This document shows, piece by piece, positions 27,624 through 32,781 of a stretch of 64,000 bases of DNA. The translations under genes and the position numbers were made by a program. Each line of letters opens with the position of its first letter. Within the stretch, counting starts at the first letter, position 1. Origin of the DNA: Croceibacter atlanticus HTCC2559 (GTDB lineage Bacteria > Bacteroidota > Bacteroidia > Flavobacteriales > Flavobacteriaceae); contig NC_014230.1 in assembly GCF_000196315.1 (NCBI RefSeq), positions 434,001 to 498,000 of the forward strand, given 5' to 3'. The notes under the pieces were generated by a model. That model was given only the letters and a program-made list of their open reading frames with translations, was not told where the DNA came from and ran no database searches.

Positions 27624-27696
27624 GAGGTTGGTACTAGGGCTTTAAGTTACTGTGTTAAATTAGCGTTTATTTTCAGTTTAAAACTAACGTTATCAA

Positions 27697-27728
27697 TTCC
27701 GAGTGGATTCGGACGTAGTCGAATCCGC
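27697..27728 (+). repeat. Dispersed repeat, copy 1 (32 bp)
   Basis: This copy contains GGATTCG (27705-27711), an 8-bp spacer and CGAATCC (27720-27726). The core GACGTAGTCGAATCCGC is identical in a second copy at 28534-28565 in the same orientation. Both lie in spacers of the cassette-like region. Confidence 0.75.
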
Positions 27729-27770
27729 TGTAAATGTGATTATTAATATTATCGTTTTGTGTTTCATCAA

Positions 27771-27911
27771 ATGTTGTACAGCCTTTATGTATAAGAATAG
27801 TGCTTTTTTAAGCACCTAATTTAGCAAAGACAAACCGAAAAGAAAATTTGAGAGAATTTTCAAAAATAGACTTGCACTAGCAATTAATTTTATAAGGTGT
27901 TGTAGCTAGTT
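27771..27911. repeat. Hairpin-rich spacer element 1
   Basis: It begins GTTGTACAGCC...GTATAAGAATAGTGC and ends GCACTAGCAATT...TTTTATAAGGTGTTGTAGC, so AGTGC/GCACT and the flanks form inverted repeats. It abuts the stop of the minus-strand gene at 27916. Its start resembles the element at 29161 (GTTGTGTATAAGAACAGT) and its end resembles the ends at 28576 and 29341. Confidence 0.5.
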
Positions 27912-27915
27912 ATTA

Positions 27916-28359
27916 TTACAGATTCGTACTTAAAACTTTACCTTCTTTTTTAGCTTTAGAGTCCTTCGCAATTCCAATTAACATTCCAATTAACATCCCG
28001 AAAATTAATCCATATGAAACATTTTTGAAAGCTGCTCCAAACGCAACTCCAAAACTCATACCAAGGCTCATTCCGATTGCAGTATAATAACCTTTTGAAA
28101 TCAGAGATAATTTTTCTTTTAAATACCCTACAAATAGGTTCAGCTTTTGCTTGAAGTGTTTTTTTCTGTTATCAGAGTTCTCATTAAAATTTAGAGAATC
28201 AAGTTTTTCTTCTATTGATTTTAACTGTTCTTCTGAAAGATCTCTATTATTCAAATCAGTAAAAATTGAAATAAAATTCTTATAAATTTTGATTTCAGTT
28301 TTATTATCTGATTCTATTATTAAATTTTTGAAAAATGCAGATGCTTCATCTAATTTCAT
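27916..28359 (-). CDS. Hypothetical protein with glycine-rich membrane hairpin
   Basis: I do not recognise this 147-residue protein. Residues 1-80 are charged and probably helical, with EEQLKSIEEKL coiled-coil character. Residues about 85-135 form two hydrophobic, glycine-rich segments (GMSLGMSFGVAFGAAF and GLIFGMLIGMLIGI) with GxxxG spacing like glycine-zipper membrane hairpins. A basic tail (KDSKAKKEGK) follows. No signal peptide. It stands alone between two hairpin-rich spacers in the same orientation as the next gene, which suggests a one-gene cassette. A membrane-acting effector is possible but unsupported. Confidence 0.65.
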   Translation of the reverse strand: MKLDEASAFFKNLIIESDNKTEIKIYKNFISIFTDLNNRDLSEEQLKSIEEKLDSLNFNENSDNRKKHFKQKLNLFVGYLKEKLSLISKGYYTAIGMSLGMSFGVAFGAAFKNVSYGLIFGMLIGMLIGIAKDSKAKKEGKVLSTNL

Positions 28360-28473
28360 AAGTATTTAAATTTAATATTTAGGATATACTCTATTATATG
28401 AGTCTGCTTTTTAACTAATGTGTTACAATATGACTCTTGAGAACTAATTTTTATCAAATTGGTTACGGTCTAA

Positions 28474-28590
28474 TATAACCGTCAGTTAAGGATTTATATG
28501 CGTTAATTTTCTGTTTGGCACAGAAGTTAGCACTTCCAAGCAGATTCAGACGTAGTCGAATCCGCCGAAATAGGGGTTATACATTGTTGT
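28474..28590. repeat. Hairpin-rich spacer element 2
   Basis: It starts with TATAACCGT (28474-28482), the right arm of ACGGT...ACCGT. It contains the second copy of the 32-bp repeat and ends GTTATACATTGTTGT (28576-28590), 14 bp from the stop of the minus-strand gene at 28605. Start and end resemble those of the element at 29161-29357. Confidence 0.45.
28534..28565 (+). repeat. Dispersed repeat, copy 2 (32 bp)
   Basis: Same orientation as the copy at 27697-27728. The 24-bp core differs at two positions, both in the left arm of the inverted repeat, so the perfect stem of copy 1 is weakened here. Confidence 0.75.
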
Positions 28591-28604: not shown

Positions 28605-29138
28605 TTAAAATCTGTTTATCATTAGTATTATGAAGGAAATCAATAATGTATTTTCAGAAAAGTCTTTCAAAGAGTTTTTATTCAGTATTTCTGATTTTAA
28701 TTTGTTAGCAAAAATGATATTCCCATTATCTAAATCGACTTCCTCAGCGACTAAGTCATTCACATTCAATCCGTGAGCGATTAGATTCCTAGTTTTTAAA
28801 GTCTCAGATAGATTTAGGTCTAAGAAATTAGTTAATTCCTTAGCTGTTGATATATTTCTATTTTTAGTAATTGAAGAATTGGATTCTAAATATAACTTAA
28901 TTTTAGTTTGATATTTTTCTGTTTTCAATACTTGTTTAAAAAGGCTTATTTTCTTTCCAAAAGCTATTGGCAAAATGAATTCTTCAAGATATAAATTTAA
29001 GACTTCTTCATTTTCGCATATTGGTTTAAAAGTCGAGTAGATAATTTTAGTTAAAATATCTTCAAGTTTCAAACTTAGAGCAATAATTTGCCCTCTTACC
29101 CTAATTTCATCATTCATTTTTGTATTTAATTCATCCAT
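28605..29138 (-). CDS. HEPN-like protein with Rx4H motif
   Basis: The 177-residue all-helical protein starts with a helix like those of HEPN-domain proteins (IRVRGQIIALSLKLEDILTKII). It has ETLKTRNLIAHGLNV near residues 112-126, where Arg117 and His122 make the Rx4H catalytic signature of HEPN RNases. No partner (MNT nucleotidyltransferase or antitoxin) is adjacent. HEPN proteins of this size are often toxins, abortive-infection effectors or ribonucleases, though non-catalytic members exist. It sits alone between two hairpin-rich spacers. The family call rests on the motif and helical pattern only. Confidence 0.55.
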   Translation of the reverse strand: MDELNTKMNDEIRVRGQIIALSLKLEDILTKIIYSTFKPICENEEVLNLYLEEFILPIAFGKKISLFKQVLKTEKYQTKIKLYLESNSSITKNRNISTAKELTNFLDLNLSETLKTRNLIAHGLNVNDLVAEEVDLDNGNIIFANKLKSEILNKNSLKDFSENTLLISFIILMINRF

Positions 29139-29160: not shown

Positions 29161-29357
29161 TTATAACGGTTGTGTATAAGAACAGTAGGGCTGATTTGCA
29201 CGCTATCCATTCGGTTAAACACGAGCCGAATTTTTAAATTTTTCTTATTATTTTTCCTTTGTCAATAAGCCAAATTTAAAAATTTGGCGACCTTGCAAAT
29301 GCGCCCGAACTTCTGTGTTAGCAAGTACTCGCGCTATTTTTTATATACATTGTTAGC
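29161..29357. repeat. Nested-hairpin element with imperfect terminal inverted repeats
   Basis: The left end TTATAACGGTTGTGTATAAG (29161-29180) and right end TTATATACATTGTTAGC (29341-29357) are imperfect inverted repeats. Inside, GGGCtgATTTGCA (29188-29200) pairs with TGCAAATgcGCCC (29294-29306). Further in, a 17-bp arm at 29225-29241 pairs with 29272-29288 (one mismatch) around a 30-nt loop. The roughly 197-bp element carries no gene and fills the spacer between the HEPN-like and WG-repeat genes. It resembles a MITE or a very long recombination site. Confidence 0.65.
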
Positions 29358-29382
29358 AAATGTTATTTCCTTTGGTAATGAA

Positions 29383-32300
29383 TCATTCTACTTTTTCGCC
29401 AAATTTATTTATGTAGAAATAATCATTTTTTTTAGGTTTTTTAAGGCTTACTTTAGCTTTACCATTTTTAAATGGCTCAACCATTATGTATTTTAAAGGA
29501 ATGACGATTTCAGCATTCTCATTTATATACCCACATTTGCCATTATCGCAGATTCTTGCCAAACCTTCTGTAAATGCAAATACTGCTTGATATTCTATAG
29601 GTATAACAATTTTACCGTTAGTATCTATAAACCCCATTTTTTTATTAAGCGTTACTATAGCGATACCTTCAGAATGCATCTCTGCAAAATCATATATCGG
29701 GTCTATCACAGAATCACCTTGTAAATTCATATAGCCATATTTACCTTTCACCTCACTAAAAACAGCGAGACCATCACTAAAAGGTGTTAGCCAAGGGTAT
29801 TTTACTGGAATTATATTTTCACCTTTCCAATTGAAAAAACCTCTATTGTTACTATTTTGATTATTGTGTTGAACTAGAAAACCATCATCTGTTTTCCATA
29901 CTTGGATATATATTTCTTTTAAAGAATTCTCAAGTTCATCTATAGATTTTAAATCTTTAAGCTCTTCAATTTCAAGTACCTCATTTTCTTTTCTTTTAAA
30001 TAATATCTCGTCATCATTATCAATTTCTTCACCTAATAGGTTTAGATATATGCTTTGATCATACTCATCTTTAGCTAGTGCTAACCCATCCTTGAACGAT
30101 TCAATCCGCTTGTATTCTTTATTTGTTAATACTTTACCTGTATCATCTATAATTACATATTTACTTGTGTAGTCACTGCTACCACCAATATTTGCAATAG
30201 CAACATTATTTATAAACTTAGGTTCATTGCCAAAGGTTATTTTGCTAGTTTTCTCTCCTTTGCTGTCAATAATAAACCATCTCAGACCACTTGCGAATTT
30301 CTCATTTGCCACTATAGCATAACCTTTATTGTTGAATGGTCTTGCTATATCAAAACCTTCATTGAATAAATATTCTCCATTAGTGTCAATGTATTTATAT
30401 TTATCATTACCACCACCCATAAAAGTTGAAGTTTTAGATTTTTTTACTACAGCACTTTTATTTATAAAAGATACTCCTTTATCAAATTTTCCAGAAATCT
30501 TTACATTGCCTTTTCTATCAATGTAAAAGCTATTTTTATCACTTTCTGGGACATAATCTTGAGTTCTCTTTTTCCCATCTTTGAGTTTTGTTGCAAAAGC
30601 CAATCCTTCTGAAAATGAACTGACGTCTATATATTCAAAAGGGATTACTGTTTCTCCATTTTTATTTATAAAACCTGCTAAGTATGTTTCTACATCTACA
30701 ACAAACGCCATACCTTCATCAAAAGTTCTAGCATTTTTGTATTTTAAAGGTATAATCGTTTCTCCTTTGATATTAATAAAACCATAGCGTTCATCTTTAC
30801 TTACAAGAGCAAGTCCTTCAAAAAAGTCTGTTACGGTATCATATTTTGAGGTATTTAGAATAGTTTTTCCTTGTTTATTAATAAAAAATGTTTCATTACG
30901 TTTTGGCACATATACTAATTTAACATTTTCACGTTCTGCCCAGTTATAATTCGAATTACTTGCTTGAATTATCGTTTTTTTAACAATATCACTCCCATAT
31001 TTAGCTTTCTGTTCTTCAAATATACGTTCTTGTTCTAAAAACTTTTTATATTCCTTTAGTGTTGAATCATAAGCAGTACCATAAGCAACATTTTTATTAT
31101 CTAAGGCAATAACTTTTTTAAGTATTGCAAGTTTTTCAATTAGTTCAATATTTTTAAGTTGAGATTTTTCATAAAGCCATTTAGGATTATTAGGCTTTTT
31201 TTGAAGAGCCAACTCTAAAAAATACGGTGCTTTTTGTTTTATACTTTCATTACTACTGTTAGATTTACGACTAAACGTATTATAATAGGTTTCACCAGAG
31301 ATATTTTTACTATTATTTTTAAAACTTCTATTCCCAGGGTCTTTGCAATAATTGCCTCCTCTAATAATTTCATCAGCATCTTTCATCATACACGCTGCAA
31401 ACTCATATTGTTTTAAATAAAATTCTTCAGCATCTTCAGAAAGTGCAAGTGTTGCAGCTTTAAGTGCATTTTGTCTTATTGGGAGGTATTTTTCCTTTAA
31501 TTTCTCAGCTATTTTTGAAAGTTCTCGTTCCTTCTGCCTTTCAAGATTTTGTCTTGCATTACGTTCTTCTTTTTCCAGTTTTCTTCTTGCCAAAACTGTA
31601 GCTGTTGTTGTTAATAATTCTCCTACAGCAGCCTGTGTTTCATTCTTTGCAGCTGCAAGTACTCGGGTTCTAGCTGTGGCAAGATCTTTGTCTAGGTCTC
31701 TAGCTTTTTTATTAAAAACATCTTCTAGCTGTTTTTGTTTCTGCCTAGCTTCTTTAATAATACCAGTTACACTTGTAGATTTTATTTGAGAAAAACTTGA
31801 TATTTGATTTATATAATCTTGCTCTTTTGCCCAATTATTAGACATTTCGGTAAATTGAGTAGTTAAGGTATTACCTAATTTTTCTAATGCAGCATCATAT
31901 TTTACAGTAGCGGCTTTTTGATTATCAATAAAATCTTGAGCATCATTAGGTTGATTGTTTTTATTAGAGGTTACGTCGTTGCTTTTTTGAGTGTAAGAAT
32001 CTCTTTGTTCATTGTTTTGCGAATTTTCATTATTACCTAATTGATTTTCGTATTGTTTTTTTTGAGATCTAAGCGTTCTTAACTCGTTATCTATAAAATA
32101 TTGCGGATGATTAACAGGATTCTTTATTACAAGATCTATCTGCTGATCAATATATTCTATAGCTAATTTATAATTGCCAGAAGATGCGGCATTTTCTCTT
32201 TGACCTCTTAGGTTTTTTAAGTCTGAATTGTATTTATCACCAATACGTTTTTCTTCCTTAACTTGATTTTGATAATTAATTTCTCTATCACACATACATT

Positions 32301-32454
32301 TTACGTAATCTGTTTGTGTTTCAAAATCACACCACGAAATTGCATTGTCACCAGCAGCATAATTTTCACCGTTTTTTAGTAATGAATTGCAGTCTTGAGA
32401 GTATGCTGAAAAATTTAAAAGAACCAGAAATACTATGAGTATATTTATTTTCAT
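29383..32454 (-). CDS. Secreted WG-repeat protein
   Basis: This 1,023-residue protein has a signal peptide (MKINILIVFLVLLNFSAYSQ). A polar, coiled-coil-prone region follows (about 30-330: QRENAASSG, ARQKQKQLEDVF, RQNLERQKERELSKI), then a helical part to about 490. At least eight WG repeats come last (about 500-1015), each built as F-x-E/D-G-L-A ... GFIN..GE-x-VIP..Y. WG repeats form a beta-propeller-like binding surface; partners are generally unknown. No C-terminal T9SS sorting domain is visible, so the protein is probably periplasmic or membrane-associated. It is alone, upstream of the cassette-like stretch. Confidence 0.85.
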   Translation of the reverse strand: MKINILIVFLVLLNFSAYSQDCNSLLKNGENYAAGDNAISWCDFETQTDYVKCMCDREINYQNQVKEEKRIGDKYNSDLKNLRGQRENAASSGNYKLAIEYIDQQIDLVIKNPVNHPQYFIDNELRTLRSQKKQYENQLGNNENSQNNEQRDSYTQKSNDVTSNKNNQPNDAQDFIDNQKAATVKYDAALEKLGNTLTTQFTEMSNNWAKEQDYINQISSFSQIKSTSVTGIIKEARQKQKQLEDVFNKKARDLDKDLATARTRVLAAAKNETQAAVGELLTTTATVLARRKLEKEERNARQNLERQKERELSKIAEKLKEKYLPIRQNALKAATLALSEDAEEFYLKQYEFAACMMKDADEIIRGGNYCKDPGNRSFKNNSKNISGETYYNTFSRKSNSSNESIKQKAPYFLELALQKKPNNPKWLYEKSQLKNIELIEKLAILKKVIALDNKNVAYGTAYDSTLKEYKKFLEQERIFEEQKAKYGSDIVKKTIIQASNSNYNWAERENVKLVYVPKRNETFFINKQGKTILNTSKYDTVTDFFEGLALVSKDERYGFINIKGETIIPLKYKNARTFDEGMAFVVDVETYLAGFINKNGETVIPFEYIDVSSFSEGLAFATKLKDGKKRTQDYVPESDKNSFYIDRKGNVKISGKFDKGVSFINKSAVVKKSKTSTFMGGGNDKYKYIDTNGEYLFNEGFDIARPFNNKGYAIVANEKFASGLRWFIIDSKGEKTSKITFGNEPKFINNVAIANIGGSSDYTSKYVIIDDTGKVLTNKEYKRIESFKDGLALAKDEYDQSIYLNLLGEEIDNDDEILFKRKENEVLEIEELKDLKSIDELENSLKEIYIQVWKTDDGFLVQHNNQNSNNRGFFNWKGENIIPVKYPWLTPFSDGLAVFSEVKGKYGYMNLQGDSVIDPIYDFAEMHSEGIAIVTLNKKMGFIDTNGKIVIPIEYQAVFAFTEGLARICDNGKCGYINENAEIVIPLKYIMVEPFKNGKAKVSLKKPKKNDYFYINKFGEKVE

Positions 32455-32781
32455 TTTAAATGTTTAAGGATTCAAAATTAAAATTATTATGAATTCAGGT
32501 CAATACCTCATATTGGGTATTTTCTTAATATTTGCTAACTAGTTTATAAGCGTAACTCCAAACTTAATCAATAAAACACATTAAAAAACTTATAATTTTT
32601 AAATTAACATAATAAATTGATTTATAATTATTTAAACGTTTACAAGCGACAACAAGCACTTACAATCGTTTACAAATATTTACTTACCGATTAATACAAG
32701 AACGCTACTACATCTTTGCTTCGGCAGTCAATACAACTAATCTGTCATTATCTCAATTGTTTAATTTAAAAACTAATTATT
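32455..32781. other. 327-bp intergenic region before ssb
   Basis: AT-rich sequence between divergent genes with no convincing ORF or RNA gene. It holds the phased repeats at 32639-32688 and a small hairpin AATACC/GGGTATT near 32500. A -7-like CATCTTTG (about 32713) probably serves ssb. Confidence 0.6.
32639..32688 (+). repeat. Five degenerate 10-bp tandem repeats
   Basis: Units begin at 32639, 32649, 32659, 32669 and 32679: TTTACAAGCG, ACAACAAGCA, CTTACAATCG, TTTACAAATA, TTTACTTACC. The spacing is exactly 10 bp, close to one helical turn, which suits cooperative protein binding on one face. They lie about 95-140 bp before the ssb start. Confidence 0.6.

Follow-up and report, generated by a model that had tools for sequence, protein, structure and literature searches.

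The 197-base hairpin at positions 29161–29357 of the window looks, judged from its sequence, like an integron-type attC that terminates a movable gene cassette (by window we mean the whole stretch of 64,000 nucleotides analysed, 434001–498000 of the window's genome, G000, a single contig of 2.95 Mb). We put at roughly 0.88 the probability that it is an attC-like recombination site, closing at its predicted 3′ end a movable cassette (most hold one gene) in an integron-like system of the Bacteroidota. The initial annotation had offered three guesses, a MITE, a folded recombination site and a structured RNA. The second is the one that held, as the element appears to be the attC-like site ending the first cassette of a small minus-strand array; the other two fared badly, for the reasons given below together with the evidence on cassette movement and on strand-specific folding.

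The hairpin, its copies and the array in the window

Nested inverted arms had been claimed for the element and they are present, the reported 17-bp arm lying within longer inner arms (29225–29249 and 29264–29288; 25 nt, 88% complementary). The sequence also folds as proposed: as single-stranded DNA, the segment 29141–29377 reaches −29.7 kcal/mol compared with −20.2 ± 3.6 in shuffled sequences (z −2.65), with only 1 of 200 shuffles folding equally well. It is free of genes, as had been stated, in that no ORF of at least 80 aa overlaps it. The “terminal inverted repeats” are there too, and we read them as two outer recombinase-box regions, in the sense orientation CTAACAATGTATATAA ... TTATACACAACCGTT. 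What the description as a nested hairpin missed is the extension of the outer stem into the flank, which becomes visible beside the start of the same cassette at 32539; the cassette array, its attI and the recombinase were all invisible to the initial annotation, which had no means to see them.

The element has many copies. By blastn it is found at 12 places in the genome, and five other places are 81–88% identical to it over nearly its entire length; a covariance model (R1, 126 positions) finds 28 sites in G000 at E 0.01, including the element itself (29165–29354, minus strand, 49.7 bits, E 4.1e-7). R1 was built from 28 short sites, 7 from G000, 18 from genome G014 and 3 from genome G010, and those sites match it by construction. 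It superseded a simple search for left and right motifs, which missed many sites and left many cassettes seemingly mismatched; the cassette match rate rose with the covariance model. The arms covary, with 60 cells changed on both sides compared with 17.7 ± 2.9 in shuffles and 94.4% of cells paired in the arms versus 23–47% with the partner slid, values to be read with the structure having been derived from the same alignment; one of the five covariation measures, the number of further pair types, is not unusual (15 versus 12.9 in shuffles). A single copy with no covariation in relatives, the outcome named at the outset as speaking against the hairpin element, is thus not what was found.

Genes and copies of the element alternate along one strand. 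Sixteen sites make up the largest array of G000 (78–104 kb), and two arrays of G014 hold 55 and 50, with a median spacing of 0.8–1.2 kb. At E 0.001 and with stricter filters, R1 finds sites in 173 of 199 genomes of the same family and, across the phylum, in 83 of the 296 sampled; one genus of the family (g142), present with 11 genomes in the phylum sample, gave no site match. The family is very likely the Flavobacteriaceae, since another of its genomes (G159) has a recombinase identical to the one in Algibacter onchidii. A lone site of G000 (117866–117990) lies about 0.8 kb from a 428-aa frame that weakly matches the recombinase described below (E 5.6e-4; region 116487–117990).

The array in the window lies on the minus strand and is headed by an attI-like dock at 32527–32550, with an inferred crossover at GTT (G = 32539; sense CTTATAAACTA↓GTTAGCAAATATT, the arrow marking the crossover). 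The dock has the motif TATAAACTA↓GTT in common with the site directly 3′ of the recombinase gene at 78 kb in G000. Its key (the GTT plus six bases that form the reverse complement of a cassette's own end), GTTAGCAAA, is the reverse complement of the element's left end at 29354. Taken to begin at the first GTT, that of attI, and to stop one base short of the following GTT, cassette 1 spans 29168–32539 on the minus strand, and its start, GTTAGCAAATATT, differs from the reverse complement of its end, GTTAGCAAATGTT, solely at position 11, the standard mismatch. It carries a minus-strand gene for a WG-repeat protein of 1023 aa (29383–32454; PF14903 WG_beta_rep, E 1.1e-71, 8 stretches) and ends in the attC-like site with the long hairpin (29165–29354, minus).

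Two more cassettes follow on the same strand. The gene of cassette 2 encodes 177 aa (28605–29138) and has no Pfam match at E 0.01; its attC-like site at 28464–28588 (74.8 bits, E 4e-12, one of the 28 sites used to build R1) is probably decayed, terminating in GTA and matching the key at 3 of 6 bases. Cassette 3 has a gene of 147 aa (27916–28359), with no Pfam family above its cut-off, and a site at 27780–27901 (60.2 bits, E 3.2e-9) that is probably decayed as well, matching the key at 1 of 6 bases. A partial R1 match at 27646–27733, minus strand (30.1 bits, E 0.0033, model positions 19–106), is a possible fourth attC-like remnant. Because cassettes 2 and 3 fail the boundary test, the later part of the array looks decayed. 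The array has its attI and no integrase gene nearby, and a tRNA search of the window found none.

Cassette boundaries, probable movement and proposed strand choice

The first bases of an integron cassette pair with those just ahead of its own attC, since the two form a single site in the circle. The key expected on this basis is present in 112 of 129 cassettes, compared with a mean of 3.7 and a maximum of 11 for 2000 shuffled starts, and its six bases fall outside the model R1 that located the sites. This test used 136 of 154 R1 matches, those left out including L048, L049, L050, the window match at 27646, L045 4952 (plus strand) and L012 5123. Among the public records that the recombinase retrieved (best 80 of 575 relatives, many of them MAGs; 75 of 82 R1 matches used, gaps above 4.5 kb skipped), the key is found in 40 of 46 cassettes, with a mean of 1.4 and a maximum of 7 in shuffles. 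Counted by array, it is found in 51 of 54 and 45 of 49 cassettes in G014, 4 of 5 in G010, 12 of 15 in the 78-kb array of G000, 0 of 1 in its 2176-kb array (5 of 6 bases), 0 of 3 in its 1420-kb array and 0 of 2 in the window. The three later cassettes of the 1420-kb array match at 3, 4 and 2 of the six key bases, and given these failed keys, together with those of cassettes 2 and 3 in the window, the small arrays may be old and inactive.

The outer pairing extends past the six bases to about position 14. Position 11 is mismatched in 112 of 112 key-positive cassettes and is A versus G in 104 of the 119 cassettes with at least five matches, giving an A.C mismatch on the top strand where the bottom strand has G.T. 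Most cassette genes point the same way: the longest ORF is in sense orientation in 113 of the 129 cassettes and antisense in 2, and 14 have no ORF of 60 aa.

Nine sets of near-identical cassettes in G014, yielding 92 pairs, delimit the unit that appears to move. Identity drops at C↓GTT on both sides, near-identical cassettes being found beside differing neighbours, so that identity stops at the predicted crossover and the moved unit, judged by these copies, is the gene together with the element, from GTT to GTT, rather than the element alone. This speaks against a MITE or transposon end spread by a transposase. Such an origin would account for imperfect terminal inverted repeats, the absence of a gene and the many copies, but the arrays run one way, neighbouring copies mostly being separated by a single gene, and it is the two ends of a cassette that match by complement; a full six-base match across one element is seen in just 8 of 129 cases. 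We regard such an origin as extremely improbable.

Some cassettes and sites depart from the general pattern. A 557-bp cassette of G014 without an ORF of 60 aa occurs in 13 copies over both arrays, 96–100% identical and sometimes in tandem, and may carry an RNA or a promoter. Two cassettes of G000 (L010 2484 and 10377) have the same first 40 bases (GTTGTCCACAATAACC...), different genes and a key match of 3/6 each, as if they had recombined internally or lacked a site. In G014, at L043 4542–7182 and L045 11878–14419, and also at site L048 2364–2489, GTCAGWCTG replaces the GTT after the site. Directly behind it in both G014 arrays that have this sequence is a transposase gene, in opposite orientations, which we take to be IS1182-like, and the insertion sequence seems to aim at the attC crossover. 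A cassette within an array of G014 (L043 15495–16772) seems to encode a related second recombinase, with 36–40% identity to the array's own.

Cargo was scanned in 99 of the 104 distinct sense cassette proteins, the other five crossing a locus edge. Among the families listed, the matches are to C5, type I and type IIG methyltransferases, HamB, HerA, AriA/AriAB and mads components, and further to ResIII, MmeI and immunity proteins.

The two strands of a site differ in how well they fold. When 111 distinct sites are folded in circular form with DNA energies, 107 of them are more stable as the bottom strand, the means being −28.1 kcal/mol for that strand and −23.7 kcal/mol for the top strand, and the outer arms contain 4.3 G.T pairs on the bottom strand versus 0.29 on the top. 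The gene-sense strand folds worse because its A.C mismatches are G.T wobbles on the other strand, which suggests that the strand is chosen through wobble pairs. The same asymmetry tells against a structured RNA at gene 3′ ends, be it a terminator, a riboswitch or a small RNA. The position of the element directly after stop codons (median 9 nt) and its covarying arms would suit an RNA of this kind, but the gene-sense strand is the worse folder, the outer stem needs the cassette start joined to the cassette end, as happens in no linear transcript, and the window contains 0 Rfam matches at gathering scores. We consider an RNA very unlikely, and continue with the attC-like recombination site.

The attI-like docks and their probable recombinase

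Directly after the recombinase gene, the attI motif reads TATAAACnA↓GTT. With at most one mismatch it is found at 14 of 31 loci, and variants can be recognised by eye in others. When the key of the first site is traced back, it leads to a cassette start in 21 of 22 public recombinase loci; 15 of these starts lie no more than 160 nt from the stop, and the other six, further off, are probably behind a cassette whose site R1 missed. In G000, five arrays are headed by such a dock. Tracing keys gave attI-like starts in the window and in the arrays at 78, 1420 and 2176 kb, and the fifth, at 1534 kb, came from a pattern search, which misses the window attI. Three of the seven pattern matches (76.7, 716 and 2643 kb) have no key within 1.5 kb and no R1 match in the retrieved stretch and were deemed chance, and the backwards control of the search gave one match.

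Among the five docked arrays of G000, a recombinase match is found only at 78 kb, so that one integrase probably serves several docks. In G014, two docks share about 100 nearly identical bases and the recombinase adjoins only one of them. Within 140 nt after the recombinase gene, a TAnnTTTG (−7) box is present at 12 of 31 loci (Markov mean 3.2, maximum 8), and a spaced Bacteroidetes −33/−7 promoter at 0 of 31; cassettes may be expressed from a promoter near attI.

We propose that recombination, with folding in vivo, would proceed as follows. In a cassette circle, or in a cassette leaving its array, the bottom strand of the site would fold into a long hairpin in which the cassette's first 9–14 bases pair with the bases directly before the site, G.T wobbles favouring this fold while the other strand has A.C mismatches. 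The tyrosine recombinase would recognise the hairpin and, cutting at the invariant GTT, join it there to attI (TATAAACnA↓GTT) or to another attC, and new cassettes would enter behind the fixed site in one orientation. The recombinase encoded at 77.0–78.1 kb, which heads the genome's largest array, probably acts in trans on the array in the window.

The recombinase and the sites occur together. Relatives of the recombinase at E 1e-30 are present in 130 of 199 genomes of the family, and sites are found in 126 of these 130 versus 47 of the 69 genomes without it (Fisher p 2.7e-8, same 199 genomes). Near the recombinase genes, 82 of 82 R1 matches are on the recombinase strand, with 78 lying downstream of the gene and 4 ahead of it (best 80 of 575 relatives, two of them yielding no ORF); 16 of the 39 recombinase loci with at least 1.5 kb downstream have no R1 match there. 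In view of these two sets of exceptions (47/69 and 16/39), the link is not universal at these thresholds. Sites in genomes without a recombinase match might indicate that some other enzyme (Y1, a serine recombinase or XerCD) moves them and that the neighbouring recombinase is incidental, and the genome does encode further tyrosine recombinases, none of them near the window array. Against this stand the co-occurrence of recombinase and sites and the location of the recombinase gene directly upstream of a same-strand attI-like site in many genera and on a plasmid, and we give the idea of another enzyme very little credence.

The plasmid (NZ_CP041688.1, Chryseobacterium sp. SNU WT5; L176 12001–24843) has the recombinase, an attI-like site and four sites below E 0.001. 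The NCBI name of its member is “site-specific tyrosine recombinase/integron integrase”. Within its array, genes for an IS110 transposase and for the reverse transcriptase of a group II intron lie on the opposite strand, reminiscent of class 1 integrons with their attC-targeting insertion sequences and introns.

The recombinase that heads the 78-kb array, on the array's strand (genome 77000–78127), is a tyrosine recombinase of 375 aa matching PF00589. The closest NCBIfam model is XerA_Arch (NF040815), at 202 bits with a cut-off of 220. The integron integrase model TIGR02249 reaches 192 bits (E 1.2e-56) with a cut-off of 265, and its positions 181–239 are unmatched, so that the IntI-specific domain is not found. 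TIGR02249 has no match above cut-off in G000, and at E 0.001 it gives weak matches in 14 of 14 control genomes, none above cut-off. In the predicted model of the protein (pLDDT 85, pTM 0.51), the closest fold is XerA (5hxy; Z 23.0, rmsd 12.8, 245 aligned); IntI4 (2a3v; Z 21.2, rmsd 6.2, 254 aligned) is among the best solved structures.

An extra N-terminal domain of about 75–95 residues is present in most of the 26 members aligned. In Pfam (10 members) its best match, at 0.0011, is below cut-off and to a family of unknown function, and by sequence the best match in the PDB is at E 0.68. Foldseek places SMARCAL1 HARP first at E 0.15, with none at 0.001, and fold comparison gives archaeal XPB at Z 5.6–5.8 (rmsd 2.0–2.4, 55–57 aligned), tied with aIF1 at 5.9–6.0. 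A HARP/XPB-like fold, which was first guessed from the sequence pattern, is only a lead.

The match to TIGR02249 and the likeness to IntI4, together with a layout of recombinase, attI, GTT crossover, attC, one-gene cassettes and a better-folding bottom strand, would be expected if the array were a canonical integron of the IntI family whose recombinase merely looks different, for example after a later loss of the insertion. The tree lends this some support, in that the free tree places 16 of 51 Bacteroidota recombinases together with IntI and relatives from outside the Bacteroidota, closer to IntI than the remaining 35. Opposed to it, in addition to the score below the family cut-off and the unmatched model positions, are the spacing from KGxKxR to HxLRH, which is 64–69 residues in 51 of 51 Bacteroidota relatives versus 106 in each of the 25 IntI rows measured (of 26), and the position of the 26 canonical IntI rows, which form one clade with an SH-aLRT of 100 and 0 of the 51 inside. 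We consider a disguised canonical integron unlikely.

The tree itself is a quick maximum-likelihood tree of 84 rows with SH-aLRT values only, drawn from a subset of the fetched recombinases, with the short row L133 left out and four rows of odd composition. Constraining the 51 to one clade gives a tree 2.5 log units better than the free tree (p-AU 0.55, not rejected). The root is unsure because the outgroup consists of two long-branched Xer rows, and we make no claim as to the older state of the insertion. Insertion-less relatives from an archaeal MAG (L171), Halonatronum (L173), Nitrospirae (L135), WOR-3 (L141) and Desulfurellales (L168) fall on or near the branch towards IntI, and no R1 match is found near them. 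Canonical IntI above cut-off is present in 105 of 395 genomes of the phylum, with 0 in this family and one in this class (G247); in other parts of the phylum canonical integrases are common.

Relation to known integrons and meaning for the Flavobacteriaceae

Canonical integrons, such as those of class 1 and the Vibrio superintegron, resemble the system in a recombinase gene beside attI, a crossover at an invariant GTT, attC sites whose outer and inner boxes are complementary, a cassette start that pairs with its own site, one-way and mostly single-gene cassettes, a better-folding bottom strand and the occurrence of arrays free of an integrase. An attI beside the integrase with the first cassette there is what we find at recombinase loci (21 of 22 public loci; G000 and G014), and inverted boxes, a GTT core and a complementary start characterise the sites, cassette 1 of the window fitting this description and cassettes 2 and 3 not. 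One-gene cassettes in the same orientation are the rule (113 sense of 129). In canonical integrons the integrase is usually divergent from the cassettes, whereas the recombinase here is on the cassettes' strand. It also differs in being without the IntI-specific insertion, outside the IntI clade and mostly with an extra N-terminal domain. Further differences are an outer pairing that reaches about 14 nt and includes an almost invariable A.C/G.T position, and the presence of several attI-headed arrays in one genome with one such recombinase.

Xer recombinases, which resolve chromosomes at dif, are the other obvious comparison. Archaeal XerA and bacterial XerC/XerD share with the recombinase the closest NCBIfam model, the closest fold and the lack of the insertion; unlike them, it sits at the head of cassette arrays, and G000 encodes two more Xer-like proteins, each of about 300 aa. 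With CALINs, the attC clusters lacking integrases, the array in the window shares its sites without a recombinase, but it keeps an attI-like head of its own, as do three other recombinase-free arrays of G000.

In the literature, the additional domain around patch III serves as the criterion for an integron integrase in passages of PMC2426708 and PMC9668308. A passage of PMC8618304 counts Bacteroidota among the phyla with integrons, and one in the IntegronFinder 2.0 paper (PMC9024848) names a single complete integron in Bacteroidetes proper, in Salinibacter ruber. A literature search, whose coverage was without preprints and with few subscription papers, returned no title on these arrays or on integrons of Flavobacteriaceae.

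As far as its sequences tell, the system is one that works like an integron, with most of the layout present, and is not a canonical one, the defining domain being absent and the recombinases lying outside the defining clade. On balance, and with considerable reserve, we favour the view that it may be a second, independent or ancestral, kind of integron in Bacteroidota, with a Xer-like, insertion-less recombinase bearing an N-terminal domain, strand-specific hairpins made by wobble pairs and one recombinase serving several scattered attI-headed arrays.

If this is true, the domain held essential for integron recombination would not be essential to the principle, and most Flavobacteriaceae would have a largely unrecognised gene-capture system, partly stocked with anti-phage genes. 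Surveys requiring the IntI-specific domain, as described in passages of PMC2426708 and PMC9668308, would miss these loci. Two questions become testable: whether the IntI insertion is needed for recombining folded DNA, and whether integrons had a single origin or multiple ones. With sites in 173 of 199 genomes of the family, capture of the integron kind would be widespread among a large group of environmental bacteria, and could explain islands of one-way small genes and defence genes.
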